Below are positions 3,001-62,492 of a stretch of 64,000 nt of DNA, piece by piece (position 1 is the first letter of the stretch; each line of letters begins with the position of its first letter). The notes under the pieces are model-generated. The model saw only the letters and a program-made list of their open reading frames with translations. It ran no database searches and had not been told where the DNA came from. The translations under genes were made by a program, and so were the position numbers. Source of the stretch: a virus; IMG/VR virus record IMGVR_UViG_3300045922_000167, positions 1 through 64,000 of that record, one strand, 5' to 3'.

Positions 3001-6000
3001 TTAACGTAAAACATACAAAATGAGCTAGTGTATCTTCTGGTTTTAGATAACCTAAAACGTTTTTAAAAGCTACGTAGTCGTTATTAGCAATATTTAGTAA
3101 AGATGATACTATATGTTGAGCAGCTTCGTCAATATTTGTTATTGTTATTGATTGGTCTCGTAACAGAAAATGTGACAAAATAAAAGAATGTTTAACAGGT
3201 TCGTATAGTACATTTTTAAATTTATGATTAAACTGAATTTGCTCTTGTTCTAAAAATAATTTAACAATAGCAATTGCTTTATTTATTTCAGCATTATAAT
3301 TTTTTTCTAAATCTTCAACAGTAAAAAATTTAGCATTTTCTGCTAATAGTACTCTAGAACTATCTCCTATAGTAGGCATTCTTTGATAGTACTTTTTAGT
3401 TTTATTTTTTACTAACGATTGTCTAAATAAACTATAGTCAATACCAAATAACTCATCAGAAGTTAATTTCTTTTGTGTAGATCTATCATAAAATGTATAT
3501 TCTATTCCTAAAATATCTATTGATGTTTCTAAAGAAAAGGCAGAACTTGATATTTTTATACCATTTTCTTTAAACATATTTTGTAATTGATTTGCTCTAC
3601 GCTTCCAATGTTTATCATTTGGTGTTACAAATCCAGTACCTTGTACGTTTTTTCCTTCCGCATTTAACGTATGAGAGTTATGAAGTCTTGAACTATAATC
3701 TATTAATTGACTTGCTAAATCTAACGTAGCGTTTCTGTAATCTTTGTTATTAGTTGTAGATTTGGTGCTTTCAGTTCCTATGTGTTCTGGAATAATAGTA
3801 GTAAAGAAAGTATTTAAAGCATTTAAGTATTCATCTGCTGTTAATTTACTTACGTTTACTCTCAGTGAAGCATTGAATAAAGAAAAAGCAAACCTTGCAG
3901 CTTCTGTTTTAGCTGTTTCATTTGAAGAAGAAACAAAATTTTCGTTACCCGAAGCTATTAGTTTTTCATCTTTTATTTCTTTACCATTTACTACGTTTGT
4001 TTCATTTTTAAATAATCGCCAACCCCCATTAACAAAAAGTAATTTATACTCTTGTTGTTCCTTGTTAACAGTAATAATAAACTTTATTGATGCGTAGTCT
4101 TCTGTGCTAGTATATTTAAATTTATCTTTATTACCAATAAACTCTAATATATTATTTTCTAATAAATTTCTTGTATTTTCTAGACTATCGTTTACTGTAT
4201 CAAATCTTAGAACAAATTCACCATCTTCATCAATTTTTATTGTAGCATATTGATAATCACGTACAGATTCAGCATAATAAAATAAAGAATTAAATAAGTT
4301 TTGTGCTTGATTTAATTTAATTTTAATATTTTCTTGTTCTAGTAAGTTAGAGGCTATAATATTTTGTTCTTGTACTGTTAACAAGAAACCTGGAGAGTAA
4401 GAACCAGAATTATTTCCATATAATGCTACATATAAAGAAGATAATATAGATAATCTATGATTGTCTAAGTTAATTTTTTCTTCTTCATCTACAATTATTT
4501 CGTTTCCGTATTCATCATATATGTAGTTACCTGTTTTTAGTATAAAGTTTTCTAAATAAGTTTTAAAAGTCATTGGTGTAAGCGGTACACCAGGATTTAA
4601 TTTTTTAAATTCATTAACTTCTATATAAGCAGCTTTAAGTGCTTGCTCTGGGTATAAAAAAGAAGCACTACGATTTCTTACGTTTTGAGTTAAATCTACT
4701 AAAGTTTTAAATAATTCTTTTTGTTGTTCAATAGTTCTTTGTTCAATTGGTATTTGTTGTAATTCTACAACTTTGTTTAATTTATTAATAAAAACACCTA
4801 AACTTTTGCTACTTGCAAATTTAGGAACTACACTTAAAAGTAACTTAATTCCTTCAAAACCTGATAATTCTTGAGTATCTACGCTTGCATTTAAACCACC
4901 TAAATTTTTTAGTAGTTTTTTAGTCTCAGCATCAGTTTGCTCTTCTATACTATCTTCTTCTTGTTTAATTTCTACGTCAGCTTCTTCAGAACCATCATAT
5001 AAGTCATCATCATCTATAGGAACATTAGTATTTTTTTCTTTAGCAATTATTTCCAACTCTTCTTTCTTTAATTTGTCTTTTACATCTTCATCTAAAAATA
5101 TATTAGCTTTACTGTGAGTTATTAAAGACAATAATGTAGCTCCTATTTTGCGTATTTTTTTATCTTCATTTACCATCCAGTACGTATAATATATGTCTGT
5201 TATTAGCTGGTTATTAAACGTACCTCTAGTTGGATCAGGATTTAAACCTACCTCTGCTAACCAATTATCATAGTCATTTATTAAATCAAAATATTCATCA
5301 AACTCTGATCTTATATATCCATTTTCATCAAAAATTATTTCGTATAATTCTTGTAATGGATTAATTGAGCTGTATCCACTTTCTATATATTCCCTTAAAG
5401 ACAAATAAAATTTAGATGGATCATCTGTAAAAGTATTAAATATTTCATTTAATACATTTCTTACTTCATTAGCTTTTTTAAATCTTTCTTCTATACCAAA
5501 ACTTAAATTTGTAGGAGGAAGATTATTGTTTATAGCTAAAGCTGAAAAATTTAATATAGTATCTAAAACTAATTGACTTCTATACTGGTATATAAAATCA
5601 TAATAATGTTTATTATGAGTAAATGGAGCTAAAAGTTCATTTTTATTGCTATTTACTAAACTTTTTTTAGCTTCTATTCTACCAGATTTAGAATAATAAA
5701 TGTGATCGTTTGATAAATTAGGAAGTTTACCTTTATAATAACCTCTTTGTGCTCTGTTAAATAAAAATTTAGGATCGTAAGTTCTTCCAATAAGTATATA
5801 TACTAACTCTTTTAAATAAGAAAATAACTTATTTAATATAGTATCTTTGTAAGGACGTAACTCTTGAAACGTATCTGCCATCCATTCTTCTGCTTCTATA
5901 TCAGAAGACTTTGTATTTTTTAAATACTTTTTCTTTACATAATCAAGATATTTACGTTTTTCGCTATCTGTTACAAAACCATCAAATATTAAGTGAAAAG

Positions 6001-9000
6001 CTTCATGGTACACAGCTTTTCTACTAACTTTTCCTTTATATCTATTTAATCCTATAGTCGCCTTAACGTCTCCACTGAGTATAGATGCAGCCTCGTAGTA
6101 CCCATTTAAAGGTATACCTTTATGCTTTAAGTTATCCTCTATGTTTGTCTGACCATACTTTTCAAACGTTTTACCAAATAGCTCAGTTAGCACACCCTTA
6201 GCTTCTAATTCTGACATATTGTAGTCAGTGTAGTCATTGTCTTCAATACTACGTTTAGAAAAACTAAAATTATTTATATCTACCTTACTTTGTGATGATC
6301 CTTGTGAATTTTGTGAGTTTTGTTGTGGCGTTGACGGTGCTTGTGTAGTTTGTGTTGATGTTGTCGGTGTTTGCGTGGATTGCGGTACAAATCTTCTTAA
6401 TGTTTGTTGCGGTTGCTGTAATGGTATACGAGCTTGTATTTCTACCCCAGTAAACTTAATTATATTACTATATACTACATCATCTATTGAGTTTGCTACG
6501 TCATTTAAGTCAAAAATTTGACCTACTCCAGGTACTCCATTTATAGAGTAATTTTTAAATAAGTCTTTGTGATTTTTACCTTTTGGTAGTACTATGTACT
6601 TGTAATATGCAGTATATAATGGTGAACGTCCATTTTTTTGTTCATACTTTTGTCTGTAAGCGGCATCAAATTTTCTAATTTGTTCTTTAATTATATTTAA
6701 ATTATCTGTAATAGTTTTTGGGTCTGGTCCATGTTGAAAGAAAATTTTACGAGATAACGTAGTTCTTATTAACAACGGAGTTAATGCCATAGTTAAATCT
6801 CGGTTAGCATTTACAAATGAATGTATTTCATTTTCTAATCGTAGAAATTCATCATCTTTTTTAAGATCCTCTTCTGTTAAGTTTTCACGTTTAATTTTGT
6901 CTTGTAACTGTTTTACAGTTTCTTCCCAAGAATCTATTAATTTTTCAATTTCCTCTACGCTTTTAAAGTTTCTTCTGTCTAACGGTAATGGGTATACTAC
7001 ATCATTAGCATCTTTAAATAAAAGATAGGCTCTACCTTTTTCTAAATTAGGTAATTTAGATATATTTTTTGAGTTTGGACTACCAGGAATATATTCTATA
7101 CTAGGATTAATTACATCTGGATAAGTTTCATCATAAACTACAGTATTAGATACATTTACTACTATTTTCCCAATAGAAGTAAGTCCTTCTTTTCCCATAG
7201 CTTCAATTAATTGCGCTATGGTACCACCATTTGTATTAGCAGCAAAAGTAGCACTTCCTATACCAGCTGTTAAATCACTAGCTTGTAATGAAGATAAAAT
7301 ACTTTCAATACTGCCTTCTTCCTCAGGTTTAAAGTTTTGAATAAAGTCATTTGTTTTTTTAATGTATATATATAATGGTGCTTCTTCTGATGTAATATTA
7401 AAAAGTGCAGGAGGGTTTATTTTACTAAATGGTAATATTTCTGCTATAGGTTTTTGATTGTAAGTTATTATTAATTTATTTCTTACTTTATCTAATTGCT
7501 CAACAGAAACATTTAATTTATTTTTTTCCTCATCATTATAAATAGCTTTAAGTAGTATATTCTTATTTAATAAATTAGTTCCAGTTTCGTCTATTAATAC
7601 ATTTATTCTAAGAGGTAAAAAATTAGAAAAATATCTTTTATATATAGCTGTTAATCTACTAGCTATCTCTGCTTCTATTTTAGCCTCTTCGTTTATTTGA
7701 ATTCCGTCAGTTTCATAAACTTTAAGATTTGAATAAATTTTCTTTTTTTCTTCCTCATTAGCTTCTTCTAATATGTTTCTAACTCTTTTTTTAGCTCCTA
7801 TTATTTTATTTAAATTATTAGAAATCTGGTGTAAAACTTCTATCTTTACTGGTAAATTAATTCCTTGGTTATCATTATTTTTTTTACCACCAACATGAAT
7901 AATAGAGTCTTTACCATCAGGTTTAATTTCCGTTGTAATTATATAACAAGGTATAGAGTCTATATCCACATTAGGATCGTCTTTTTTGTGATCCAAAAGA
8001 GCCGAATTAAGTAATTTTACATATTTATTTCTGTAATAAGATGCTTTGTTAGCTTTCGGGTCTTTTGCATCATATAAAGCATTATATGATCTTGCGTAAC
8101 TACTTGTTGGTACTTCTGAAAATTTAGAGAAGTCATGCGTATAGTAAAAATTAAAATAAGTCCATAAACCACCTTTACCTATTACTCTCATAGGTATATT
8201 ATAAAGTATACCTTTATTTATAGAGTTATCAATTTCTCCAACATTTCCAGTTTCATAATTAAGTACATCTGTAATATCAATTTCCACATTAGTTATATCA
8301 CCACCTCCAGTCAACTCAATAATTTTTGATCTTATATTTTTAAGAGTATTTTCTATTAAAGTACTATTTATTGGTTGTAATATACTTGCACTTCCATCTA
8401 TTTTAACAGTTAGATTAGTATTATAATAATCAGTAATTTCTTTAATTTGATTTTCTATTTTACGAGTAAACTCTTCTTTATTAGTAAGTATATAGTTTTT
8501 TATTAAATTGTTAAGTAAATTTCTAAATTGTATAGGTGGATTTTGTAAAGCAGTATTATCCTCAAATTGCTCATCTGCGTCTTTTAAGTTTAAACCTCTT
8601 ACAATATCATAAAGAGTGTCATACTCAGTAGGGTCTATTTCACCAGAAAGAATTTTGTTATGTTCTGGTAGTTTACCATCTACAAAGTTTATCGGTGTGG
8701 TAGGTTCGTTATCTACGTCTACGTCACTTTGTTCTGTTATAGCGTCAGCTAAGTCTTCAGCTTCTGAATCTATTTGCTGTTCGTCTTCTACTTCTACTTC
8801 TTCTACGTCTTCTACGTCTTCTACTTCTTTTCCTTCTACTTCTGTATCAGGCGGTGTGAGCGGTGCAGTGGATGTACCTGTAACGTTTGTACCATCCGTA
8901 ATTGGTGCGGCGTTTTCACCATTAACTATTGGAGTTTTTTTACTTTTTTTTCCTAAACTGTTTATTGATTTTGCTATAACTTCTGAGGTTAAGGTTACTG

Positions 9001-12000: not shown

Positions 12001-15000
12001 TGTTTAACTTCTCAGCATTTGGTATTTTCGGTCTAACAATTACATCCCCATTATTTGATAATGTTAAATCAAGTAGATTAAATGGAGAATTAGCAATAGA
12101 AACATCTAAAATAGATGTATTCTTTGCTTGAGTTTTTTCAAAATATTTAGAAACTTCTGGATCAAACCTGCTATTAAATATTTTAGCCTGATTGTGTAAA
12201 AAGTTAATTCTAGCTGCCTGTAAAGCTTTTTGTTTTTTATTTAAAAGAGATACATTATTTTTAGTTTCTTCTTCTGATAATACAAGGTTATTAGCTTCAT
12301 TACGTTCTTTAAAATATATTAAATTCGCTTTAGCTAGCTCTACAAAACCACCTGACTGCATTACCATTAAACGAGTACTTAAGTTATCATACTCTTTATA
12401 GGCATTTTTTATATCTTCTTTAATAAGTTCTTTTTCAGCTGGTGGTATATCAACATCTTTTAATTTAGCTTCTTGATCTACAATATATCTTTGTAAATAA
12501 TGTTGATGTGCTAAAGTATCAGTTACTTTTTTAGTATATTTATTATGGAAATTTTTTAAGAAAACTTTATCATTTTCATCTAGATCTAATCCATAATAAG
12601 ATGAATTATCTACATTAAACCAACTTAACGGTTTAAGTAAAGATTTTTTTGTACTTCCAAATAATTTATTTATTTCTATTTCAGTTTCTACTCTATCAAT
12701 TAAAAATTCTTTTAAGAATTCTTCAGCATTTAAACTTTCTGGTTTAATTCCTGTTTTACGTTCAAAAGTTTCGTAAAACATTTTTAATAAGTTATAATCT
12801 CCTTTACTTACTGCATCTATATCTTCTTCTGTAGCTAATCCTTTATTTTTTAGTACTTGTAATTCAAATAATAGTTGTGATTTTGTTTTATCTATTGTAG
12901 AAACACCTACGTGACTTGACTTTAATTTTGATGGTGATAATAGTTGTAAAGTATATTCCTGTGTATCAGGCGAAAAAGTACCTAAAGTATGTTTAGCTAC
13001 ATCGGATAAATCCATTGATCTAATAGCATCAATTATTGTGTTTTTATCCGTAAACTCTAACATACTAAGTACGTTATCAGATACACTTGCTAATTTTTCT
13101 ATTTTAGCATTTGTTTTAAACTGACGTATTCCTTGAAGGAAAGCAGTAGGAGCACCTGAACCAAAGCCTAATAGCGCACCTTTTAAAGAGTTATTAAATG
13201 CTCTTACGTAGTTAAAACTACCATCTTCATCTGCTGATACCATACCTCCACTGAGCATTCGTTCAGCCACTAGTATTTTGTCTGGGTGGTTCTTATACTT
13301 TTCATACAAATGAAATGAAGCTATTTCTTCATGTAAAGTTTCCTTAAATTCATCAAAAAACTCAGCAGAAAAAGGCGTTGCTGATGTTAATACTCTTTTC
13401 GCTATTGTAGGAATTACTATGTCTTTTTTAAATTCTTTCAAATAAGCTGAAACAGCTTGAGGTCCATACAAGCTATTTAATGCTATCTTTTGTATAGCTT
13501 GTTCATGTAATTTAGTTGCGTTAACAAAAAATGGTTTTAAGTTAGCTTCAGGTAAAAACGCACTAGTTAACATGTACAAAGAACCAAGTTCTTGTGCTGC
13601 TATGGCTGCATCTTCTGGGTCTATACCTATTCTAATCCAATCTTGGTAAATAGATTCTACGGCTATTTTAGTAAACGTATTATTGGCAAAATAATTTGCC
13701 ATAAATGCGTCTAAAATTTTAATATTACTTGCTGCTGGGTTAGCAATTATTTTACTTGCTCCAGCTACGAGCTTTTCGCCAGACCAAAATAAAGGTTTTA
13801 ACGGCGTACTTCTTGCTGCTTTGTAAGCTTCACCAACACCAGAAACTAAACTTTCTCCAGCTTTAACAGCTCCAGGCAAATACTTAGTAGTAGCCTTTGA
13901 GATTGGTCTATATATAGCAGAAAATTTTGCGTTTATTACGTCATCTGTAAAAGTTAAACCTTTACCAACAACTTTACCTGCAAGTCCTAAAGCACTTCCA
14001 GTAGTAGCTGTTTTTGCTAAAATACGAGAACCAATAGCACCGCCTAATTTAGCACCTCCTTGTACACCTTTAGATACTGCGCCACCAACAAATAAAGTAG
14101 GTATTGCTGGAACAACGCTACCTATCGTAAAAGGAATAGCAGTTTCGTAAAAATCTGGAGTAATTAAAGACATAAAAGCCTCTGGATACGTACTAGGTTT
14201 ATCTATACTAAAATTGCTAAATAACTCATCTACGTTTTTTGGTCTATCTGCAAATGGATGAGCTTCTTTATAACCACGTAATTTAGATAAATTAGCTGCG
14301 TAAGACTTAAATAACTCTGCACGATTTAGTAATCCTAAATCATTACCTTCTATACCTAAAGCAGAAAAAGCAGCTGAACTTGGATTTTTTACAGTACCAG
14401 CATTAAGTATAACTTCATCAAAAAAGCCATTTAAAGCATCTGTAATAACATTGACATTAGGCATAATATATTTAGCCCCAATGTTTACCCAAAGTTTTTC
14501 ATACCATTCGTTTGGCGTAAACTCATAGTTTTCTTGTTTTCTTTTATTTTCTACTAAAGAAAGAACTTGAAAATATCTAGCGTCTTTTTTTAAAATGTCT
14601 CTTAAAGCTGCTTGCTCAGGTGTATCGTTTTCCTCGTAAAAACTTAACGGAGTATATTTTACTTTTTGAGTTTTTGCTATATCTTTTAAGACATCTTGAA
14701 AAAGAGAAAAATGAGGAAACCTACTAGCTTCATATCTAGCATTTCTTATGTTTTCCCAATTATCTTTAACGAGTTTAACCGATTCTGTACCTACTCTGGT
14801 TAAAAATCCAGTTACACCTCTTTCTAATATTTCATCTGCTGATCCATACCCACCAGATGTATTTAACGCACGAGACAGTAAATAAGGATTTCCTTTTTCC
14901 TCGTCTGTTAACTCTCTATAAGTTGGTATAGGTATATTATTTTTATCTACTTTCCATTTATCTTGTGGCTCTAAAATTATTACTTTGCCTTTATAATCTC

Positions 15001-17368: not shown

Positions 17369-18688
17369 TTAATTAAATTTTATTTTAGGTGCGTACCAAA
17401 GACTTGATTTTAATGGTTTACCTATCAAACGTTCTCCTAAACTTGAAGCGGAATTTAATGAATTAGTACTTTGTGGTAATGAATTTATTTGACTATTTGC
17501 TGTACCAAATGATTCAGGTTCTTCATTAGAACTGTATGAACTTAAATTATTAGAGTTAACAGAACCAAGAATAGGATTAGATATGCTAGGTCTTAAACTT
17601 GGGTTATTTTGACCTAATTGTTGTTTATATATATTAAAAAGGTTGTTATTCATACCGTGAGTATTCAAATCCTTAAACAAAGACTGACCAGTACCTATCA
17701 TTCCTTGCAACGTCTGCATTTTAGTATTATGTCTCATTATCTCATCTTGGTATTTAGCCATAGCATTTTGATTACGAGACTGGTTTTCTTGAGCTGCATA
17801 TTGGTTATCCAGCTGACCTAATTGCATTTCTAAGTTAGACCTTTGCATACCTAAGTCAGCTTGCTGTCGTGCAAGATCATTTTGGGCAGAAAGTGCCGTA
17901 CCTTGCGCTTGGTTAGTTAACGCAGCTGCAATAGCTGCAAAAGGCGTACTACGTTGTGCTTGGTTTGCAGCGTTCGTTAGTTGATTATTTATCCTTTGTG
18001 CTTGACCACTGAGAGCGTTCTGACTCGCCTGAGCAAAGTTATTACGCGCAGCTCCCATAAACGATCTATTTGCCTGAAAGTCTTGTAGCTTAGGCATTTT
18101 AATTTTGTTTTGCCTAGTTATACTATACGCACCTAAGCCTATGTTAGCAGCTGCTAAACCACCTGCTATGTATGGATTAGCAGTAGCTAAACCAGCTAAT
18201 GCTTTTTTATATGAGTCTAATTCCTTGCGTTGTTTCATAGCTTCTTGTTTAAATACTGAGTCGTCTGCTGAAGATAATAATTCTATTAAATATTTATGTT
18301 CTCTAATGAATTTTTTTCTTGGTAGTTCAATCTTACCTCCAGTATCTTTTTTCTTGTCTTTACCATCAGGTAGTTGATTATGTACATACTCTTTTTCTTC
18401 TGAAGTTAATCTAAGATAATCATCTTTTTTTATTCTTCCTACTCTACTTTGTGTAGGTATTATCATTCCACCAGCTTTAAATTCTCCTTTAATACCATTT
18501 TGTGAATGATATCTTCCTTGTAAATCCCATATATGATATTTACCATCATGCCCCATATACTTTGCTTTACCACCTGATATAATTTTAGGAGGTTCAGGAT
18601 CAGTATGTACGTACAGTTCATTATTTTCAGCTTCTATTTTAACATACGGTGTAGATTTTATATATTTACCGTTTTTAATATCTTTCAT
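17369..18688 (-). CDS. Internal virion protein, Ala/Gln-rich helical, 439 aa
   Basis: The first ~75 residues are Gly/Tyr/His-rich (MGHDGKYH near 45 and a hydrophobic AGGMIIP near 73). A charged region follows, then a small hydrophobic Ala/Gly patch around residues 165-190 (LATANPYIAGGLAAANIG). From about 200 to 345 comes a long Asn/Gln/Ala helical segment (QAQ, NNQ and AAQEN repeats), typical of ejected or membrane-active internal virion proteins of podoviruses. The tail is Ser/Asn-rich. The gene ends 21 bp before the next virion gene. Its ATG is only 3 bp from the ATG of the divergent plus-strand gene at 18692, so no promoter fits between them. The role is inferred; no family was firmly recognised. 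Confidence 0.6.
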   Translation of the reverse strand: MKDIKNGKYIKSTPYVKIEAENNELYVHTDPEPPKIISGGKAKYMGHDGKYHIWDLQGRYHSQNGIKGEFKAGGMIIPTQSRVGRIKKDDYLRLTSEEKEYVHNQLPDGKDKKKDTGGKIELPRKKFIREHKYLIELLSSADDSVFKQEAMKQRKELDSYKKALAGLATANPYIAGGLAAANIGLGAYSITRQNKIKMPKLQDFQANRSFMGAARNNFAQASQNALSGQAQRINNQLTNAANQAQRSTPFAAIAAALTNQAQGTALSAQNDLARQQADLGMQRSNLEMQLGQLDNQYAAQENQSRNQNAMAKYQDEIMRHNTKMQTLQGMIGTGQSLFKDLNTHGMNNNLFNIYKQQLGQNNPSLRPSISNPILGSVNSNNLSSYSSNEEPESFGTANSQINSLPQSTNSLNSASSLGERLIGKPLKSSLWYAPKIKFN

Positions 18689-19081: not shown

Positions 19082-19268
19082 TCATTTTTATTCTCTCATT
19101 ACTCACTGAGTGTTCCCTTATAATTAAAGACTTAAACGCAGCTATTGTATCTACGTCTAAATTAGCTGTGAGTTTACTACATTGAGCTGTAAAAACACCT
19201 CCTTGCCAAAAAGCACAATTAGAACACTTAGGTTCAGGTAATTGGGGATTATTTTGTGTATTTGCCAT
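18990..19268 (-). CDS. Small Cys-rich protein, possible zinc ribbon, 92 aa
   Basis: Residues 14-40 contain CSNC, then a single Cys (QCSKL), and a late CTFH follows near residue 72, giving a plausible Cys3/His metal site. The start codon overlaps the stop of the 1,203-aa tail gene by one base (TAATG), the usual sign of translational coupling in this genome, and that supports a real gene. The last ~90 bp are shared, in antisense, with the end of the plus-strand HU-like gene, and one copy of the CTCAGTG element lies in the overlap. The function is unknown. Confidence 0.6.
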   Translation of the reverse strand: MANTQNNPQLPEPKCSNCAFWQGGVFTAQCSKLTANLDVDTIAAFKSLIIREHSVSNERIKMTIHTFPDFYCTFHQYSQDTVMVSPPEEPSC

Positions 19269-22888: not shown

Positions 22889-22917
22889 ACTCAGTGAGTG
22901 GTGTGAAGACTTAAAAA
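22889..22917 (+). repeat. CTCAGTG two-box element in the leader of the tail stabilization gene
   Basis: On the plus strand this reads ACTCAGTGAG, seven further bases, GAAGAC and then TTAAAAA. It fills nearly the whole 38-bp gap between two minus-strand genes, so the gap probably exists to hold it. Read in the direction of transcription it is TTTTTAA, a CTTC box, and CACTGAG ending 11 nt before the ATG at 22879. Promoter or leader function is an inference. Confidence 0.5.
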
Positions 22918-40074: not shown

Positions 40075-40099
40075 AATCCTCTCTGTGCAACCACTGAGT
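40070..40099 (-). repeat. CTCAGTG two-box element before the lysozyme-like gene
   Basis: On the minus strand it reads ACTCAGTG, seven bases, AGAGAGGA and then TTAAAAA, closely matching the copy at 36534. It points away from the gene at 40117, but its CACTGAG end is only 18 nt before that ATG. This is one of several copies lying immediately before a start codon in reverse orientation. Confidence 0.45.
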
Positions 40100-40116
40100 G
40101 TTAATATCTTATTTCT

Positions 40117-40629
40117 ATGTGTGTAAAGATAAATAACAGATTAAGTTCCTACGAAGCCTACGTTAGGAACGTAAGGAACTTACTAATAGCTATACTCATC
40201 CTGTGTTCTTGTCGCCCATGCGAAAGGAACGTCAGGAACGATGTTATTCCTGTTAGTACTCAGTGTGAGATAAGAGAGATTAAAAATTTTATAGAATTAA
40301 AACATATCCTACAACGTTATGATATACCTTGTCAGGATATGTTCGTGAAAATAGCTATGTACGAAAGTGCATGGTTAAGTAGTAGTTTACATGTTACGTA
40401 CAATAATTCATTCGGTTGGTGTTATACTGAACATGAAGATATTTGTGCTAACGTGTATGGTAGCGCTCATTTTGCTTCTTACGAAAAGCAATTTGAGTTC
40501 ATGGTTAAATGGGTTAACTTAAATCCTAAACGTCCCACCGAATCGTGTGAGGACTACTTTAGGAGAAGACATTACAATGTCGTTAACCCTAATTATTACA
40601 ACATTTTAAGTAAAATCATAATCAATTAA
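40117..40629 (+). CDS. Lysozyme/glucosaminidase-like lipoprotein, 170 aa
   Basis: Residues 18-34 are hydrophobic, with LLIAILILCSC, a lipobox-like signal. The mature part follows the pattern of glucosaminidase or Bax-type wall hydrolases: 'KIAMYESAWLSS' with a Glu in the expected catalytic place, then 'NNSFGW', 'HFASYEKQFEFMVKWV' and a final 'YN-x-x-NPNYY'. It would attack peptidoglycan from the periplasm, either in lysis or during DNA entry. It ends 5 bp before the next gene. A CTCAGTG element lies within it (40259). The assignment rests on pattern resemblance; the fold needs a profile search. Confidence 0.6.
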   Translation: MCVKINNRLSSYEAYVRNVRNLLIAILILCSCRPCERNVRNDVIPVSTQCEIREIKNFIELKHILQRYDIPCQDMFVKIAMYESAWLSSSLHVTYNNSFGWCYTEHEDICANVYGSAHFASYEKQFEFMVKWVNLNPKRPTESCEDYFRRRHYNVVNPNYYNILSKIIIN

Positions 40630-44452: not shown

Positions 44453-44998
44453 ATGAAGCATTTAATTTTCCTCCTCTTACTCATCTCACTGAGTTCTTGC
44501 GGAGTATTAGAAAAACGTTACTATAAAAGCTTAGTAACGTACGACAATTGCCTAAAGGTAGTTAATCCAGTTGTACTGGATATACCTTGTAAGGATACGA
44601 TTATTACGCTGCCTACGTACAGTACGTTAATTAACGTACCTTTAAGAGATACGTTTATTGATAATACAATATGGTATCAATTACTAGATTCTATTTTTAC
44701 TTACAAAGATAGCTTAACTGAAGCTAAGTTATTGTATGATAAAACTACTAATAAGTTTAATCTATATGTACGACAACAGGAAAAAGCATTTAAGGTAAAA
44801 GTAGCTGATGAATTAGCGTTATTAGACCAATACAACAGATTAAAACGTAACTATCAAATTTTATTAAACGATAGGAACGATTTAATCGCTCAACAAGCAA
44901 AAAAAGATGAAAAAAAGCTAACTAATTTAATTTATATAGCTGCTTTCATCTTGTCTTTGCTGATTATAGCTTTTATAACGTTTTACTTAAAACAATGA
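44453..44998 (+). CDS. Candidate unimolecular spanin (lipoprotein with C-terminal membrane helix), 181 aa
   Basis: I chose the ATG at 44453 over one 12 codons earlier because it begins a clean signal peptide (MKHLIFLLLLISLSSCG) with lipobox LSSC. The mature part includes a long charged helix (DELALLDQYNRLKRNYQILL). The C-terminus is a membrane helix (IYIAAFILSLLIIAFITFYL). An outer-membrane lipid anchor plus an inner-membrane helix in one chain is the layout of u-spanins such as T1 gp11, which fuse the two membranes at lysis. The gene overlaps the polymerase start by 4 bp (ATGA). A lipid-anchored sensor or exclusion protein is an alternative. Confidence 0.65.
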   Translation: MKHLIFLLLLISLSSCGVLEKRYYKSLVTYDNCLKVVNPVVLDIPCKDTIITLPTYSTLINVPLRDTFIDNTIWYQLLDSIFTYKDSLTEAKLLYDKTTNKFNLYVRQQEKAFKVKVADELALLDQYNRLKRNYQILLNDRNDLIAQQAKKDEKKLTNLIYIAAFILSLLIIAFITFYLKQ

Positions 44999-47049
44999 AT
45001 TATTTGATTACAAACACAAAAACGTTATTTGATGAAAATAACGGTTGGAAAATACTAAACGTAATTTCTCAAACAGAAACTACGATTAGTAGATTAGTAA
45101 ATGTGTTACAATCTAGTAATATATATTATTTAGATACTGAAACTACTGGATTAGATCCACACCTTAATAGATTACTTTTAGTAACTATTAGATCAGGTTA
45201 CGATACCATAGTAATTGATTTTTCTAATTTAGGAGATAAACAAGAAGCTATTAAAGTCTTGTTAAATTCATATCTAACTAAAGAAGAAAAAACAATTGTA
45301 TGGTTTAATGGTAAGTTTGATTACAAGTTTATGTTAAAGAACTTTGGTATTCATTTAACTAATCATTATGATTTGTTTTTAGCTCATAAAGCTATAACAA
45401 ATGGGTTAGATGAACCAAATAGTCTTAAGGATGTAGTTAACAAATACTTAGGATTTTATATGGCTAAAGAAGAACGTACTGAATTCCTAAAGTATGATAA
45501 ATCAACTTATTTACCTAAGTTATCTCATATACAGTACGCTGCAAAAGATGTAGACGTTCTTGAAGATTTGTACGAAATATTACGTAAGGAAGTAAGAGAC
45601 AAAGAATTAACTCAAGTAGTTGATTTAGAAAATTCTGTTATGCCAGCATATGCTTTTATGGAATATACTGGAGTTCCTTTGGATATTACGTATTGGCAAG
45701 AAAATATTATATCTAAATACCAAGCGTTAGCTGATATATGTTTAGATAATTTAACTAAGATAGCTCTCAGTGACCCTGCACTCTCCAAATATAAAATAAA
45801 AAATCCTATCGTAAATTTATTTGGAGAACCAGATTACGCTATTTCTAGAAACGGTAAACCTTTAATAAGTAAGGAAGCCATATATCATAGCATTAACTGG
45901 AATTCTAACCAGCAAGTGTTAGAAATAATGAAAAATGACTATGGTATTGAATGTAGTTACAAAATACAAGGTCAAGTAAAACAAGGCGTTAATGCCGATG
46001 TTTTACTTGCACATTGTAGCGAAGAATTTAAACACTCAGTGAGTGATGGAGACTTAAAAAAAGGTACAGAGACTGCGAGTAGTATATTTGAATGGTTGTA
46101 CCTTTTGAAGAAAACTGAGAAGCTCTTGAGAACGTATGGACAAAATCTAATAGACATAATTAACCCAGTTACTAAACGTCTCCATTGTGAATTTAACCAA
46201 ATGGGTACAGACACAGGAAGGGTATCTTCAAACAACCCTAACCTTCAAAACTTACCACGTTTGCAAGAATTTCGTTCAGGTATTAGAGTACATGGAGATG
46301 ATAAATGGTTGATAACATTAGATTACGATGGTGCTGAATTACGAATCATAGCTGATGGAGCTGAAGAGCCTACTATGATTAGAGCTTTTAATGACGGTGA
46401 GGATGTTCACGCTTTCTTAGCTACTAAAGCCTATGGCGTTACAGTAACTAAGAAAGAAAACAAACATCTAAGAAATAATATGAAGACAGTGAACTTTGGA
46501 TTAGCTTATGGGGCTGGTCCGTCTAAGTTTGCTGATATATTTGGTTCAGTAGAAAAAGCTAAAGACTTCTTGGATAACGTTTACTACAAGAACTTTCCTA
46601 AACTTAAAACGTTTTTTAATTCCTTAGCTGAATTCGGTCAAACTAACGGCTACATAACTACTTTTCCTCCAATAAGTAGAAAACGATTTTTTCCTAATCA
46701 CGAAGAAATCGTAGAAAAAGCTAAAACGGACAAAGAATATCAAGCTAAGTTAGCTGCGATAGGTAGAGAATCTAAAAATACTCCTATTCAAGGTACTTCA
46801 GCTGATATAATCAAATTAGCTACTGCTACGTTATTTAACGAAATACTACGTAATAATATGTTAAATAACGTTAAAATAATTAACCAAGTACATGATGAAT
46901 TAACTATTGAATTAAATGGATATTCATTAGAAGAAGCTAGATCTTTTGCTACTTGGATTAAAGGGGTTATGGTATATGCTGGCTCTTTACAAATAAAACA
47001 TGTCGTTATGGAAGTATCATACGACATAGACAAAATATGGGTTAAATAA
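44995..47049 (+). CDS. polA: DNA polymerase, family A, with 3'-5' exonuclease
   Basis: Replicative polymerase. Exonuclease: LDTETTG (46-52, the DxE motif), WFNGKFDYKF near 102 and AAKDVDVL near 184. Polymerase: motif A DYDGAELR (443-450), motif B NNMKTVNFGLAYG (near 495-507), and motif C QVHDE (631-635) with the metal-binding Asp. There is no 5'-nuclease domain, as usual for phage enzymes. Some Crassvirales lineages use PolA and others PolB, so this helps place the phage. It contains two CTCAGTG elements (45766 and 46035) and a long inverted repeat (CAAGTAAAAC/GTTTTACTTG at 45973-46009). Confidence 0.95.
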   Translation: MNYLITNTKTLFDENNGWKILNVISQTETTISRLVNVLQSSNIYYLDTETTGLDPHLNRLLLVTIRSGYDTIVIDFSNLGDKQEAIKVLLNSYLTKEEKTIVWFNGKFDYKFMLKNFGIHLTNHYDLFLAHKAITNGLDEPNSLKDVVNKYLGFYMAKEERTEFLKYDKSTYLPKLSHIQYAAKDVDVLEDLYEILRKEVRDKELTQVVDLENSVMPAYAFMEYTGVPLDITYWQENIISKYQALADICLDNLTKIALSDPALSKYKIKNPIVNLFGEPDYAISRNGKPLISKEAIYHSINWNSNQQVLEIMKNDYGIECSYKIQGQVKQGVNADVLLAHCSEEFKHSVSDGDLKKGTETASSIFEWLYLLKKTEKLLRTYGQNLIDIINPVTKRLHCEFNQMGTDTGRVSSNNPNLQNLPRLQEFRSGIRVHGDDKWLITLDYDGAELRIIADGAEEPTMIRAFNDGEDVHAFLATKAYGVTVTKKENKHLRNNMKTVNFGLAYGAGPSKFADIFGSVEKAKDFLDNVYYKNFPKLKTFFNSLAEFGQTNGYITTFPPISRKRFFPNHEEIVEKAKTDKEYQAKLAAIGRESKNTPIQGTSADIIKLATATLFNEILRNNMLNNVKIINQVHDELTIELNGYSLEEARSFATWIKGVMVYAGSLQIKHVVMEVSYDIDKIWVK

Positions 47050-48253: not shown

Positions 48254-49474
48254 ATGACAAGAGATGAACTGCAAATGGAAGCACTTCAGTCCTGGATAAA
48301 TTCAGGATGTGTAGGGAACATAATATTACCTACTGGTACAGGTAAAAGTAAATTAGCTCTAATGGCTGCTGGTTCGGTCATAGAGCATTTTTATTCTCTC
48401 AATATGCTCACTGAGAGTTCGCAAGTATTAATTGTAACAAGTCGTATTAACCTTAAAATAAACGAATTTCCAAATACTATTAAGAAGTTTGGTTACGAAG
48501 CTTGGGCTAAGTACATTAAAATACATTGTCTACAATCAGCTTACAAGTTTTCAGGTAACCATTACTTGTGTATAATAGTAGATGAAGTACATAACATGTA
48601 TGGAACTAATTATACTGCTCTTATTAATAATAATAGCTATTATTATTACCTCGGATTAACAGCTACGTTATCCAAAGAAAAAGAAATTCATTCTTTGTCA
48701 CACAACATTCCTATTGTTTACAAAAAGACATTTAATGATGTTGTACGACATAAAATAGTAAATCCAGTTACAGTAATTAACGTAGCAATTACGTTAAACG
48801 AAACTGAATTAAACGCTTACCAAGAAATTAACTTGGATATAGAAAATCTTGTTGATGCTTTAGTACCTAACGGTACTGCATTTGATGCGTTAAAATTAGC
48901 TACGAAATATTCTAAAGACACAACTAATGAGTTTATGCAAAAGTTAAGTCTTAGATATTTTAAACTAATTAAAGAAAGACTAAGAATACTACAATGGGCT
49001 GAAAGTAGATACTCGTGTTTACTTTCTATATTATCTAAACATCAAGATGAAAAAATAATAGTATTTACTGGTTCTATTGGTCAGTTAGAAACATATTACG
49101 TTAACGTTACAAACTTAAAAACATTTAAGACTTTTAGGTATCATAGTCAAATGACTAAAAAAGAAAGATTACAAGAATTAGATAAGTTTGCTAAAGAACC
49201 TAAATCTGCTATTATTTTCTCAGCTGAAGCGTTAAATGAGGGTGTCGATATACCTGATTGTAGTGTAGCTATTGTATTATTTGGTACTACAAGTCAACTT
49301 GTAGATACACAAAGAAAAGGAAGAATTGCACGTTTCGCTGATAACAAAAATGCTATCATGTATAACGTGTATGTAAGTTCTAGCATAGAACACAAATACG
49401 TACTAAATCGCACAAAAGAAAACAAAGAATATTCATCATGGATAACAATGGATCAATTACAAAAATCAACGTAA
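48254..49474 (+). CDS. Superfamily 2 DEVH-box helicase
   Basis: Motif I PTGTGKS (26-32), motif II DEVH (110-113), motif III TAT (near 135-137), motifs V and VI near 325-360 (ALNEGVDIP and QRKGRIAR). This is a compact 406-aa DNA helicase or translocase of the kind found in the replication block of crAss-like phages. The protein probably works on forks or recombination intermediates. The last 37 bp overlap the next gene. One CTCAGTG element occurs inside (48409, minus orientation), encoded in-frame as LTESS. Confidence 0.9.
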   Translation: MTRDELQMEALQSWINSGCVGNIILPTGTGKSKLALMAAGSVIEHFYSLNMLTESSQVLIVTSRINLKINEFPNTIKKFGYEAWAKYIKIHCLQSAYKFSGNHYLCIIVDEVHNMYGTNYTALINNNSYYYYLGLTATLSKEKEIHSLSHNIPIVYKKTFNDVVRHKIVNPVTVINVAITLNETELNAYQEINLDIENLVDALVPNGTAFDALKLATKYSKDTTNEFMQKLSLRYFKLIKERLRILQWAESRYSCLLSILSKHQDEKIIVFTGSIGQLETYYVNVTNLKTFKTFRYHSQMTKKERLQELDKFAKEPKSAIIFSAEALNEGVDIPDCSVAIVLFGTTSQLVDTQRKGRIARFADNKNAIMYNVYVSSSIEHKYVLNRTKENKEYSSWITMDQLQKST

Positions 49475-49959: not shown

Positions 49960-50899
49960 ATCTTTACACGAAATATTAACTGATACGTACAATTCGTTAA
50001 CTTACTACCGTTCAGGTAATCCTTATTGCTTTGTAACGAAATTTAACTCACTTAATGATGCTTTAGGTGGAGGTATTGAATTTGGTACTACAATGGTGAT
50101 AGGAGCAAGACCTGGTATGGGCAAGTCAACGATTGTAATGCAGTTAATCTTAGACATTCAAGAAGTAAATCACTTTCCTTTAGAGATTCATTTCTTGAAT
50201 TGGGAGATGACTACTAATCAATTGGGTATTAGAGTATTAGCCAATCAAACTAATATGAATATATCCAAGATAAGAAGTTTAGATACGATGAGTCTTTATG
50301 AAAACGTTAGTACTATTCAAAATAAAATACCAAATAAAATTTACGTAAATGATAATGCAATGACTTTACAAGATTTAGATTCGTATATTAGTACTCAGTG
50401 TGACCATAGAGAAGAAATAAAAAAACTATTCGTTATAGACCATACACGTTTATTACTTCCATCCGATGAAAGAACAGAAGAAGAAAGGCTATTCAATCTA
50501 TGCAGGTATATTAATCATTCGAATAAGTTACATGGAGCATCCTATATTTTGCTTTCTCAATTGAGTAGAGAAAGTGAAAGGGAAAATTCATCACTTAAGA
50601 CTGAAGGATACCGAGAGCCTATAATGGCTGATTTGTTCGGAGCATCTGCATTAGAACAATTCGCTCATAGTGTTATTTTGCTTTACGCTCCTAAGCTAAA
50701 TGAGCGTGAAACATATCCTATGCACTACAATAACGTTACGTATCAAATACCGACTGATAACTTAATAATCGGTAAGCTCGTAAAAAATCGTAATGGTCCA
50801 ATAGGTAAATTATATTTTGTAACAGAAAGCTCTACTTTTGTAATAAAAGAGTTTGATAAATCAACACTACAAAACCCATTTGAGTTATATGGAAAATAA
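49943..50899 (+). CDS. DnaB-like replicative helicase (SF4 RecA-fold domain)
   Basis: Walker A GARPGMGKST (54-63), Walker B LFVIDH (near 162), a downstream LLSQLSRESERE (sensor/Arg region) and 'FGASALEQFAHSVILLYAP' match the RecA-like C-terminal domain of DnaB. At 318 aa it lacks the DnaB N-terminal domain. It should form a hexamer that unwinds DNA ahead of PolA, together with the primase at 54808. A CTCAGTG element occurs at 50394, in a different reading frame from the copies in other genes. Confidence 0.9.
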   Translation: MTMPCKSLHEILTDTYNSLTYYRSGNPYCFVTKFNSLNDALGGGIEFGTTMVIGARPGMGKSTIVMQLILDIQEVNHFPLEIHFLNWEMTTNQLGIRVLANQTNMNISKIRSLDTMSLYENVSTIQNKIPNKIYVNDNAMTLQDLDSYISTQCDHREEIKKLFVIDHTRLLLPSDERTEEERLFNLCRYINHSNKLHGASYILLSQLSRESERENSSLKTEGYREPIMADLFGASALEQFAHSVILLYAPKLNERETYPMHYNNVTYQIPTDNLIIGKLVKNRNGPIGKLYFVTESSTFVIKEFDKSTLQNPFELYGK

Positions 50900-54807: not shown

Positions 54808-55899
54808 ATGACCGATGAATCTCTAACAGAACAAAAGTTATTTGACGCTGTTACTGAGCTAGAGATATTTAGTTTCGTAATGGGTGTTGATGTTGTTGTA
54901 GGAAAGGCTTATTCATCTCCTTTACGTATAGACATACACCCATCATTTTATATATTTAATTCTGTACGTGGTAGTAATAAACTTATGTGGAAAGACCACA
55001 GTACAGGTGAGTCTGGTAATGTATTTAAGCTCATTGCGTTACTGCATGGGCTTAAATACCCAGATTCGCTTAGATGGGTTAATAGGGAGATGGGTATAGG
55101 TTTACCTGATGACTACATAGATATTTCCGAAAAAGGGTACGCACGTAACGTTCCTAAACGTATTTTTTCTCCTTCTTCATTACCCACTGAGTACTCACAG
55201 AAAGTTAATTCCGTTAAGGAATTTAAATTCGTATATAGATTCTGGGAAATGTACGACTTTGATTATTGGAGTCAATATTGCATCACACCAGAAACTCTTA
55301 CGTTTTATCACGTCAATGCAGTAGATCAAGTTTGGATGAATGACAAGTTCCTATTTAGAAGTACTAAATACGAACCTGTTTATAATTATGTATTCGTAAA
55401 CGAAGTAGACAATACTTTAAGGTATAAAATCTATAAACCTTTAAGTCATAGATCTAGAAAATGGTTAAGTAATTGTAATGTAGATGTTTTACCTGGATAC
55501 ATACAATTATTATATTTGCAACAGAATGGATACGTATTCGATTCTAATTCATTTCTAGTTATTACAAAGTCTTTGAAAGATACTATGGTATTACATGAAT
55601 TAGGTATACTATCTATATCAGTTAATAGTGAAACTTCTGGTATTCCTAAATATCATTTAGAAAATATTATGAAGCTTGGTATTAATAAATTTCTAATATT
55701 GTACGATAATGACGAAGCTGGAAGATCAAACGCATTAAAATTATCTCAGCAATATTCTATACCAGCCATAGAAATACCTGAAGAATATCAAGTAAAAGAC
55801 ATTTCAGATTTAATTAAATATTATGGAAAGAACACGACAAAAGAATTTACGCAATACTTCAAAGAATACGCAGGTTACCCTAGATTACAATTACGATAA
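54808..55899 (+). CDS. DnaG-type primase with TOPRIM domain
   Basis: The N-terminal part (residues 1-110) follows the DnaG/phage primase pattern with 'SSPLRIDIHPSFYIF' and 'WKDHSTGESGNVFKLIALLHG', but without the usual zinc-binding cysteines. The C-terminal part is TOPRIM: FLVITKSLKDTM near 249-260 (the conserved Glu position is occupied by Lys), DNDEAGRSN (near 300) and KDISDLI (near 332). It makes RNA primers for PolA or acts as a primase-helicase partner of the DnaB-like protein. The last 77 bp overlap the next gene in another frame. Confidence 0.8.
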   Translation: MTDESLTEQKLFDAVTELEIFSFVMGVDVVVGKAYSSPLRIDIHPSFYIFNSVRGSNKLMWKDHSTGESGNVFKLIALLHGLKYPDSLRWVNREMGIGLPDDYIDISEKGYARNVPKRIFSPSSLPTEYSQKVNSVKEFKFVYRFWEMYDFDYWSQYCITPETLTFYHVNAVDQVWMNDKFLFRSTKYEPVYNYVFVNEVDNTLRYKIYKPLSHRSRKWLSNCNVDVLPGYIQLLYLQQNGYVFDSNSFLVITKSLKDTMVLHELGILSISVNSETSGIPKYHLENIMKLGINKFLILYDNDEAGRSNALKLSQQYSIPAIEIPEEYQVKDISDLIKYYGKNTTKEFTQYFKEYAGYPRLQLR

Positions 55900-57581: not shown

Positions 57582-57996
57582 GCTTTATGATGAGTTCTTT
57601 GCACAGTTCAAACCTTATTTAAATGGCGATGTTTGTTTACTTTTTCCTTACAGATTTATATTAGTTACGTACGAAAAAGAAAATATTACGCATAAAGCAT
57701 CTGTATTATTAGGTTATTTTGATGCCAAAGCTGATAATATTTGCAGACTTCAAGTAATATCTCAAGTAGAGTATACAGATGATAGGGAATTAGATATACA
57801 AGCAGTTGCTTACATCTTATTAACCCTTCTACGTAAAACTGTTTTCGTAGAAGGGTTTAAATTTTTCGCTAAAATGAACTTGCAATTCGGTGGAGACGAA
57901 GATGACTACCTATATAATCTTTGTTTCTCTATACCAGCCACTGAGTTAGAGCGTTATACGCTATTTTACAGTTACACATTTCAACCTGAAGGTTAA
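57565..57996 (+). CDS. Unknown protein, 143 aa
   Basis: It overlaps the exonuclease by 17 bp and abuts the next gene directly (57996/57997). The protein is aromatic and beta-rich (FKLYDEFFAQFKPYLNGDVC at the start). Its codons ~86-98 lie in a hairpin of AACCCTTCTACG/CGTAGAAGGGTT (57822-57857) whose loop adds AAAAC/GTTTT, one of the longest in the window. No family was recognised. Confidence 0.55.
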   Translation: MENIFKLYDEFFAQFKPYLNGDVCLLFPYRFILVTYEKENITHKASVLLGYFDAKADNICRLQVISQVEYTDDRELDIQAVAYILLTLLRKTVFVEGFKFFAKMNLQFGGDEDDYLYNLCFSIPATELERYTLFYSYTFQPEG

Positions 57997-59657: not shown

Positions 59658-61152
59658 TTACTCAGAATATCACGAAGAAGACGTATTTGATTACGTTGAA
59701 GAAGAAAACGTAGAGTCAGCTAATAAAGCTGAATACGCAAAAGATCCTTACTACATATTAGAATGTAGAAGAGAAGATATTATCTATACAGATGATCAAC
59801 AAAATACATTAATAGACATAGCTAAACATATTAAAAAGTTTAGCGAAGAATATGAAGAAATTGATGATTTACCAAATAAGTATTTACTTGTAGAAGGTTT
59901 CGCTGGTACAGGTAAAACTACAATAATTGAGAACATCATCAATTATATTAATTATTTGATGGATTTTAGTCCAGTGGTACTAACACCTACCAACAAGGCT
60001 GGAGTCGTTTTACAAGAGAAATTAAGAGGAATTGAGGGTACTTATGAACTAAGTACCCTTCATTCCAAAATCTATGGGGGTCCTACGGTAGATAATAAAT
60101 GGATACCTAAACAAGAGATAATTAAGAACGAGGTTATCTTAATTGACGAATGTTCGATGGTAGATACTCAAGTACTTAACGACCTTTTAAGTTTGGCTAC
60201 AAGTAATTGCTTGATTATTATGTTCGGTGATAGCTTCCAGCTAGAACCAGTAGGCGAGAATCCTAATTTATTTACACGTCAAGACTTTTGGGCTGCTCAT
60301 TACAAACTAACTCAAGTACGTAGGCAATCGGTAAGTGAGCTACTTAACGTATGTACAGATGTTAGATTAAATAATTCAATGACTGTAAAGTCTGAATTTT
60401 TAGATAATACAATAAGCTATATAGAAAGAATTGATACTTTTACTGAAGCCTACATACAAGCATTGCAGCTAAACGCTGATGCTATGTATTTACTATTCAA
60501 TAATCAAAGTAGGGTAATGTTAAATAACTACGTTAGAGAAAGATTAGGATATACCTCATATGTAGAAGATGGAGAAAAGCTCATATCCATAGCAAACAGT
60601 TCTTCCTACGGAGACTTTATAGCGAACGGTGAGATAGTAAGAACTTCATATGTAGAAGTAGAAAATATGGAAGTGTTGTCTAAAGCCTTAGCTGAGATTA
60701 AAGTATTTACTCTCAGTGGTCTAGAAGAAAACAAAAAAACTACTGCGGTATTTAGGTTCTTAGCAATTAAAGGTACTGTACATTTATGTCTAATATTTCC
60801 TGATTTAGAGTTATCTTCGTTGCCTCATCAAGTACTTAATAGATGGATTAAAGATAATCCAGACGATGAATTCACTAAGTATTTAATTAGTATTCGTGCA
60901 GTAGCTAACAGTAAGTATGGATTATTTTTAATAAAGGAAGTAGTTATATTAACGTATACTTACGCTATTACTGTACATAAAGCACAAGGTAGTCAATTTG
61001 AATTTGTATGGATTAATACGAATGAAGTACCTAAATCTCCTTATCGTTGGTTTTATACTGCTCTTACAAGAGCTACTAAGAAAGTTTACTTACATGGAAA
61101 TAATATTAAAGTAATTAGAGATAACTTATTTACAAATGAATTACAACGTTGA
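59650..61152 (+). CDS. RecD/Pif1-like SF1 helicase, 500 aa
   Basis: Start chosen at 59650 because the next gene up ends there; an ATG 16 codons earlier is in frame. Motif I GFAGTGKTT (83-91), Ia LTPTNKAG, motif II DECS (166-169), motif III FGDSFQLEP (near 193-201), motif IV QVRRQS, motif V TVHKAQGSQFE (near 441-451) and motif VI TALTRA (near 470-475). This is a 5'-3' helicase of the RecD/Dda type used in phage replication and recombination. A CTCAGTG element sits at 60712 in-frame as LSGLEENK. Confidence 0.9.
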   Translation: MIDYSEYHEEDVFDYVEEENVESANKAEYAKDPYYILECRREDIIYTDDQQNTLIDIAKHIKKFSEEYEEIDDLPNKYLLVEGFAGTGKTTIIENIINYINYLMDFSPVVLTPTNKAGVVLQEKLRGIEGTYELSTLHSKIYGGPTVDNKWIPKQEIIKNEVILIDECSMVDTQVLNDLLSLATSNCLIIMFGDSFQLEPVGENPNLFTRQDFWAAHYKLTQVRRQSVSELLNVCTDVRLNNSMTVKSEFLDNTISYIERIDTFTEAYIQALQLNADAMYLLFNNQSRVMLNNYVRERLGYTSYVEDGEKLISIANSSSYGDFIANGEIVRTSYVEVENMEVLSKALAEIKVFTLSGLEENKKTTAVFRFLAIKGTVHLCLIFPDLELSSLPHQVLNRWIKDNPDDEFTKYLISIRAVANSKYGLFLIKEVVILTYTYAITVHKAQGSQFEFVWINTNEVPKSPYRWFYTALTRATKKVYLHGNNIKVIRDNLFTNELQR

Positions 61153-61990
61153 ATTACTTAAAGCTACGTTACCTGCTTCGCAAGAAGCAGGTAACGCTTA
61201 TAATATTCTAATTTCAATGAAGCTAACGTATCCGTTATGTATTCATTCAGAGTTTATGACGTATCGTAGGTTTGCACGTAATAGCGCTAGCTTACGTGCT
61301 ATACCTACAAAAAAATTAATAGATATGGTACGTCAATATCCTTTTATACCTAAGTTTACTAAGAATCAAAAAGGAATGGAATCTAACGCATTACTCAGTG
61401 AGCAATTGGAAGCAGAAAATATTTGGCTAAAAGGACGTGACGAAGCTATTAAAACAGCTGAGAAATTAGATGCGTTAGGTGTAGCTAAACAAGATGTAAA
61501 TAGAGTATTAGCTCCTTACTTGTGGAATACTATAATAGCTACTGCTCCGTTCTTTGATTGGCTTCATTTACTTAACCAACGTCTAAAACCTGATGCAGAT
61601 CCTAAGTTCCAAGAATTGGCGTTACATATTAAAGATGCCTTAAGGTCATTTACGTTAGAACGAAGTAACTTTCATTATCCTTTTGGTAGGTTTGGTAATA
61701 AAGTACACGATACTATCGTACGTAACGTAGCTGCTTGCGCTAGGATTAGTTATCTAAGTAGAGGTGAGTTTACGTTAGAACAAGACCAAGAACTTTATGA
61801 TCGTTTGTTATCTAATGGTCATTGGTCTCCGTTTGATCACATAGCGGAATTTAACGAATCAGAATCTAACGATAGTATTTGGAAATACTGGATACCATAT
61901 CGTAATAGACTACCTCAATGGGAATCATATAAAACAATTGGTATATACATAGAATCAATCGATCACAATATAAACATATCCATGCTATGA
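61136..61990 (+). CDS. thyX: Flavin-dependent thymidylate synthase ThyX
   Basis: The ThyX signature is present as TYRRFARNSASLR at residues 42-54, against the family's usual THR-x3-RN-x2S-x-R form, so the conserved His is Tyr here. Later 'CARISYLSRG' and 'LLSNGHWSPFDHIAE' are typical C-terminal ThyX motifs. The enzyme makes dTMP from dUMP using methylene-tetrahydrofolate and NADPH/FAD. It fits with Dcd upstream. The His-to-Tyr change may affect flavin or folate binding. Start overlaps the helicase by 17 bp. Codons 11-20 lie within a perfect 12-bp hairpin (61167-61196). Confidence 0.85.
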   Translation: MNYNVELLKATLPASQEAGNAYNILISMKLTYPLCIHSEFMTYRRFARNSASLRAIPTKKLIDMVRQYPFIPKFTKNQKGMESNALLSEQLEAENIWLKGRDEAIKTAEKLDALGVAKQDVNRVLAPYLWNTIIATAPFFDWLHLLNQRLKPDADPKFQELALHIKDALRSFTLERSNFHYPFGRFGNKVHDTIVRNVAACARISYLSRGEFTLEQDQELYDRLLSNGHWSPFDHIAEFNESESNDSIWKYWIPYRNRLPQWESYKTIGIYIESIDHNINISML

Positions 61991-62424: not shown

Positions 62425-62435
62425 GGTTAAAAGTA

Positions 62436-62471
62436 AAGGCTATTAGGGTAACACCTAATAGCCTTTTTTTA
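62436..62471 (+). terminator. Strong terminator between converging arms
   Basis: AAGGCTATTAGG (62436-62447) and CCTAATAGCCTT (62454-62465), a perfect 12-bp stem with 6-nt loop, followed by TTTTT. The A-rich left flank would let it act from the other side as well. It lies between the end of the right arm and a minus-strand gene. Confidence 0.9.
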
Positions 62472-62492
62472 GTTAACACACTCTCACTGAGT
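62464..62492 (-). repeat. CTCAGTG element at the convergent junction
   Basis: On the minus strand it reads ACTCAGTGAGAGTGTG and ends in TAACTAAAAAAA, where the A-run is the terminator's T-run seen from the other strand. The AGAG box at N7 is absent in this copy. It lies between two converging genes, where neither would need a promoter. Confidence 0.4.

Follow-up and report, generated by a model that had tools for sequence, protein, structure and literature searches.

The virus record IMGVR_UViG_3300045922_000167 (90,888 bp), of which bases 1-64,000 form the stretch analysed here (the window), carries a strict, asymmetric DNA element of about 34 bp, made of the invariant heptamer CTCAGTG, a purine stretch and an A-tract. 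We count 28 sites genome-wide as real, 21 of them in the window. We tentatively read these sites, with a confidence that stays somewhat short of even, as a genome-wide array bound by one sequence-specific double-stranded DNA-binding protein that would organise or silence the phage genome.

The heptamer occurs 24 times in the window, at exactly the positions and on exactly the strands listed in an earlier note on this DNA, against a mean of 3.23 and a maximum of 7 in 100 dinucleotide shuffles, in keeping with the low chance expectation (about four) given there. The complete-genome search that this note had proposed raises the count to 34 (18 on the plus strand and 16 on the minus strand, 10 of them beyond the window) and places CTCAGTG as the top outlier among 7-mers, with a z of 16 over the 3.5 copies expected from 5-mer and 4-mer counts, compared with 5.3 for the next non-overlapping 7-mer. 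A codon-preserving shuffle had been named as the test that could refute the claim. In 300 synonymous-codon shuffles with the intergenic copies held fixed, the heptamer appears 8.6 times on average and 14 times at most, versus 34 observed, and the heptamer with its A-tract 6.7 times on average and 10 at most, versus 27. Chance arising from codon use is thus rejected as the source of the excess, and the claim withstands this test.

When all copies are aligned on the heptamer, conservation begins and stops abruptly, at about -7 and +27, and the consensus reads roughly TTAGTA, CTCAGTG, GTAGATGAGAGAG, one free base and ATAAAAA. The strongest flank is the A-tract at +23 to +27, where position +25 is an A in 28 of 28 strong sites and whose centre lies 22 bp, or two helical turns, from that of the heptamer. 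The purine stretch, at about +13 to +18 and approximately one turn from the heptamer, follows a weaker consensus. If a single mismatch is allowed, which where it occurs always falls in the A-tract, the pattern CTCAGTG-N16-AAAAA describes 27 of the 34 copies genome-wide and 20 of the 24 in the window, while its reversed control gives no match. In the two-box structure claimed earlier, the A-tract is the firm second box, present in 27 of 34 copies, and the purine box is the weaker consensus just described.

A weight matrix, trained on 27 of the sites that it was then used to score, gives 28 sites a score above 20; the next place scores 12.1, and 20 simulated genomes do not exceed 15.8. Six heptamers were set aside by score (6079, 13255, 45766, 71646, 80728 and 82847, minus-strand copies being named by their higher coordinate). 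Most of the copies in the earlier list thus have a tail, and three lack a properly placed one and probably occur by chance: 6073..6079 and 13249..13255 (both minus strand), which have no tail, and 45766..45772 (plus strand), where the A-run comes 4 bases late and the purine box is absent. Excluding 80728 is a judgement call, its A-run being 3 bases early and that of the accepted site 19110 being 2 bases early.

How strict is the core? The heptamers with one mismatch comprise 21 words and 68 occurrences, of which five have the A-tract (7% vs a background of 5.8%). As these words carry the A-tract at about the background rate, the core appears to be all-or-none, not a decaying repeat family; copies of intermediate quality would be expected from such a family, or from a protein that binds loosely. 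A mobile insert was rejected as the general origin, since neither decayed copies nor similarity of the flanks is seen. In comparisons with homologues, the copies in the terminase and DnaB genes align to the best homologue without insertion; against the rejection, the copy in the DNA polymerase gene occupies a stretch that the homologues lack, those in the helicase and Toprim genes are in gappy regions, and site 31315 gave no alignment. The DNA polymerase stretch (site 46035) corresponds to residues of about 347-368 and is absent in three alignments, involving two homologous records. The flank score, computed by leave-one-out, is 15.2 bits at the eight intergenic sites versus 7.1 at the 20 intragenic ones (p 0.003), so that the full consensus seems to be favoured by selection, with coding eroding all but the core.

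We placed the sites relative to 73 gene models of our own greedy choice, in which small open reading frames (ORFs) were dropped and one gene was added. Eight of the 28 sites are intergenic, in 3.96% of the DNA (p 9e-6), and 18 of the 25 intergenic gaps of at least 36 bp have no site, including 37256-37521, the divergence point of the two gene blocks. The remaining 20 sites are intragenic, scattered along gene length, and fall in codon phases 0, 1 and 2 in 3, 5 and 12 cases, respectively. The observation of different codon phases in the earlier note thus extends to the whole genome, and its view that the signal does not lie in protein is supported; the signal is in DNA. Relative to gene direction, 15 sites are sense and 13 antisense; 14 lie on each strand. 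Because the element is orientation-free and present in coding and non-coding DNA alike, it is better viewed as a protein-DNA site than as an RNA signal. Neighbouring sites tend to alternate in orientation (22 of 28 pairs differ, p ~0.005), and the stretch between 19110 and 55191 has 15 successive alternating sites (p ~0.001), two regularities that were noticed post hoc. Site density is about one per 3.2 kb, with spacing as irregular as chance (coefficient of variation (CV) 0.92).

In the reading that we tentatively favour, one protein, probably encoded by the phage, would bind all sites by reading CTCAGTG in the major groove together with the A-tract beyond. Least certain is the further step, that this protein would serve to organise or silence the entire phage DNA and not to initiate transcription at individual genes. 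The array could take the form of a nucleoid-like assembly or of an orientation-neutral analogue of L5 stoperator silencing. A variant that we consider rather unlikely takes the element as a viral genome-wide identity tag: a phage protein would read the heptamer and the helically phased A-tract to recognise, sort, silence or recombine its own DNA, the copies would be uniform, imperfect ones being lost, and the system would resemble an uptake sequence operating within a phage lineage.

Several points weigh against the array. The alternation falls to p 0.026 when all 34 heptamers are counted. Two giant genes, which make up 22.5% of the genome, hold only two of the 28 sites (p 0.03), a scarcity that a position-blind array fails to explain. 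The array idea predicts no sequence feature that would separate silencing from packaging or segregation, and no close relative was found by a 25-kb megablast or by exact peptide patterns from the terminase and DNA polymerase. No binding protein was identified. The product of 61987-62424 looks like a helix-turn-helix protein by eye, has no family match above cut-off and yields a poor model (predicted local distance difference test score (pLDDT) 41); this small protein adjoins site 62491. An HU-like candidate, 23837-24367, resembles HU in the order of its secondary-structure elements in a poor model only (pLDDT 52); it has no Pfam or NCBIfam match and no useful fold match, and matches a PHROG of unknown function only weakly (E 0.0024). 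Both structure predictions were discarded as too poor for use. Among the proteins scanned, none matched the HU/IHF family or a repressor with two DNA-binding domains of the L5 type.

In design the element comes closest to a bacterial uptake sequence and, among phage systems, to the L5 stoperator array, which it resembles in copy number. The Haemophilus uptake signal sequence (USS), as described in the accessible part of PMC1626085, joins a strict core to two weaker segments on its 3' side, spaced by roughly one helical turn, prefers non-coding DNA while having many coding copies, forms close opposite pairs, and has more perfect than singly mismatched copies. The phage element is similar in its strict short core, intergenic enrichment with many coding copies and opposite pairs, and in part comparable in its weaker 3' motifs near helical-turn spacing and its few imperfect copies. 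It differs in residing on a phage, in its 28 copies, in its core CTCAGTG and purine-then-A-tract tail, and in that no host genome with the element was found; moreover, compared with the AT-rich 3' segments of the USS, its A-tract lies at two turns and the box at one turn is purine-rich. The stoperators of L5 and other cluster A phages are presented in the accessible part of PMC9283540 as more than 20 asymmetric sites of 13 bp across the phage genome, with invariant core positions, which point in the direction of transcription and occupy promoters and short intergenic spaces. Here too, many asymmetric sites (28) are spread over one phage genome; unlike the stoperators, they follow no transcription-direction rule (15 sense, 13 antisense) and most are intragenic (20 of 28, with eight intergenic). 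IHF/HU-type bending sites also combine a core and an A-tract in about 35 bp, a likeness to the element, although the IHF consensus and spacing differ.

Another likeness is with the termination motif of the P23-45 virion RNA polymerase, a repeated 20-30 bp element tied to a single-chain phage RNA polymerase in the text available from PMC10770324. Near the left end of P23-45 (1-4000) we recovered a repeat in which CTCTCTTTTT comes after a GC-rich hairpin; about seven copies are clear, and 11 places reach 17/26 identities. This repeat, unchecked against the logo in that paper, is probably the published motif, which on this evidence appears to be a hairpin terminator. Unlike it, the element studied here includes no hairpin itself and has the reverse order. 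It also differs from intrinsic terminators, as a GC-rich hairpin precedes the T-run at few sites (3 of 28), and from phage RNA polymerase promoters, as the sites do not stand upstream of genes in one orientation.

Could the word spread by itself? DNA carrying a sequence of the uptake or Chi kind would be preferentially taken up, protected or recombined, and perfect copies would accumulate where coding tolerates them. We find this doubtful, though several traits are comparable: a core with weaker 3' segments, a non-coding preference with many coding copies, and close opposite pairs as in the USS (36535/36634 and 40098/40259). Perfect copies exceed those with one mismatch if the tail is made a condition (27 vs 5), but not for the heptamer alone (34 vs 68 over 21 words). 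Bacterial genomes bearing the element did not turn up (an insensitive pattern gave 32 single matches, and 395 Bacteroidota were sampled), and a simple Chi would need no A-tract 16 bp away. We also know of no uptake-type sequence in phages, which counts against self-spreading. A polar roadblock or terminator, in which an RNA polymerase that approaches from the side of the A-tract would meet the T-run and then a heptamer-bound protein, seems to us a shade less probable again. The A-tract is indeed the T-run of a terminator-like hairpin at 62491 (-18.7 kcal/mol) and 40098 (-16.9 kcal/mol), a weaker hairpin lies between the convergent sites 36535 and 36634, and alternating orientation would close segments on both strands. 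However, hairpins are not general: their energy averages -5.7 at the 28 sites vs -4.4 (standard deviation 3.6) at 900 A5 tracts, and only three of the 28 have a strong one (-14.8 kcal/mol or lower), so that an RNA hairpin or intrinsic terminator was rejected as a general rule. Furthermore, 20 of the 28 sites are intragenic and nine of these stand in the blocking direction, so the phage would block its own genes.

A promoter of the phage virion RNA polymerase, one of the candidates of the earlier note, now appears improbable. In its favour, a giant ORF contains GSDFDVDK, of the DxDxD type, the length of the site fits, and motif-directed promoters are reported for phage P23-45 in the accessible text of PMC10770324. 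Against it, orientation is nearly balanced (15 sense vs 13 antisense), sites are found along genes, 18 of 25 gaps are empty, the divergence point 37256-37521 among them, and at 62491 no gene starts downstream in either direction. We judge a replication, priming, nicking or packaging signal present many times per genome to be just as improbable. The strict core, the presence on both strands and the occurrence about every 3.2 kb would suit such a role, whereas the sites are spaced with no greater regularity than expected by chance (CV 0.92) and no initiator, relaxase or site-specific recombinase is recognisable among the proteins scanned, the RusA-like and RecT-like matches being of other kinds.

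The start of the record is repeated from base 90,761 to its end; given this 128-bp end repeat, the genome is circular, of about 90,760 bp. Judging from its predicted proteins, the phage is a divergent, distant crAss-like phage. It has the crAss hallmarks (portal, terminase, major capsid, and crAss ring proteins 1, 2 and 3/4) with matches to phrog_6547, phrog_6681, phrog_11589, PF24228, PF25702 and PF25710. Most of the terminase matches listed are crAss-like phages, and terminase identity to other phages is 24-35%. A replication block comprises the DNA polymerase and DnaB-like and Dda-like helicases. The tail region has SprB-repeat matches below the Pfam cut-off, which hint at a Bacteroidota host. 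A minus-strand ORF of 5,139 aa, with one of 1,668 aa next, spans the record ends (window 1-15376 plus the record end), and the ORF-poor first 15 kb are in fact this single giant ORF. Near its C-terminus, at residue 4759, it bears the GSDFDVDK motif; DxDxD-type motifs are described for RNA polymerases in the part of PMC10770324 available, and the protein may be a virion RNA polymerase with GSDFDVDK as its active site. No PHROG match was found for the pieces scanned. An alternative genetic code was rejected, as reading TAG as Q and TGA as W gave no systematic ORF extension. Three small early-region proteins (39644-39955, 40635-40973 and 41573-41926) look alike near their starts by eye and are possible paralogues, and the leader between both gene blocks has short direct repeats, CGTAGGATT and AATGTAATGTACGCAGA, at 37340-37470.

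Does the element exist elsewhere? The comparison covers distant relatives only, namely the best 80 of 523 terminase relatives, at 24-35% identity. In the 25 related phage records, of these 80 loci, that were searched whole, there is no perfect match to the element and there are six places with one mismatch; the Crassvirales search envisaged in the earlier note is thereby answered for distant relatives. A 16-base pattern found seven stretches in viral contigs, and a 17-base pattern 32 stretches in bacterial and archaeal genomes, each with a single match and no repeated bearer. On the phage's own sites, these patterns fit 4 and 2, respectively, and that used to scan Bacteroidota fits 13; because the first two fit so few, bearers with few copies would be missed. 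The 395 Bacteroidota genomes sampled include 168 with a match, and 394 hold zero to five each; in the outlier, G234, 11 of the 14 matches belong to a dispersed repeat containing CTCAGTGCGACAGAGCGTTATTTAAAAA. As its copies are alike over tens of bases on both sides, this repeat is of another kind and does not represent the phage consensus. The earlier statement that the pattern was unfamiliar holds across these related phages, viral contigs, and bacterial and archaeal genomes, where the repeated element was nowhere found. Nor is it described in the accessible portions of the open-access literature on crAss promoters and over-represented motifs (PMC10136315, PMC7886860, PMC10770324).

Over-represented words were compared in 17 of the 25 related records (G014, G016, G018, G021, G023 and G026 without their last bases), and no word in these 17 comes near the z of 16-19 seen in this phage. 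Flanks were inspected for seven words from six of the 17. In the crAss-like phage G012, TACTTTGG occurs 34 times vs 6.9 expected, on both strands, but lacks extended flanks comparable to those of the element. In the crAss-like contig G013, GTACAACC (12 places) shows several conserved, informative flank columns. A wider flank test on related records was dominated by codon periodicity and was discarded. We also noted that one contig end of G011 (52-715) carries about 14 tandem units of 51 bp.

The 21 sites of the window are located as follows, from the heptamer to the end of the A-tract. Among the intergenic ones, 22890..22917 (plus, antisense) occupies a 38-bp gap between 19268-22879 and 22918-23775, and 27109..27136 (minus, sense) lies directly past the stop of the ring protein gene 27142-27858. 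Upstream of the terminase gene, 36535..36562 (plus) and 36607..36634 (minus) form a convergent pair. The best consensus match is 38526..38553 (plus, sense), in the gap 38377-38607. At 40071..40098 (minus, gap 39956-40116) the A-tract and the T-run of a terminator-like hairpin overlap, as is also the case, with a strong hairpin, at 62464..62491 (minus), in the convergent gap 62425-62509. The sense sites within genes are 17986..18013 (minus; in 17369-18688), 19083..19110 (minus; in 18990-19268, the A-tract 2 bases early), 35040..35067 (minus; in the terminase large subunit gene, with no insertion relative to the best-matching homologue), 40259..40286 (plus; in the glucosaminidase-like 40117-40629), 46035..46062 (plus; in the DNA polymerase gene), 50394..50421 (plus; in the DnaB-like helicase gene 49949-50899), 60712..60739 (plus; in the Dda-like helicase gene 59602-61152) and 61394..61421 (plus; in the Thy1-like gene 61136-61990). 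The antisense ones are 3861..3888 (plus; in the giant ORF), 31315..31342 (plus; in 30385-31551), 44466..44493 (minus; in 44417-44998, by eye at the start of a putative lipoprotein), 48388..48415 (minus; in the helicase gene 48254-49474, with a hairpin beside the A-tract), 55164..55191 (minus; in 54808-55899, encoding a Toprim-like protein below the Pfam cut-off) and 57918..57945 (minus; in 57565-57996). At 48355-48415, a hairpin of -14.8 kcal/mol is followed by the T-run and the element within the helicase coding sequence. The seven accepted sites beyond the window start at 67701, 70963, 83884 and 85357 on the plus strand and at 72354, 82946 and 89305 on the minus strand.

A 2023 review of crAss-like phages (PMC10136315) states, in the part of its text available, that their exact replication mode is unknown and their persistence mechanisms open, and the word 'promoter' is absent from that part. 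A strict, orientation-free element that recurs over the whole genome offers a concrete handle on the biology of these phages. If it had spread by drive, this would be, to our knowledge, the first such case in a virus; if it does serve to organise or silence the genome, it would bear on the persistence of crAss-like phages.

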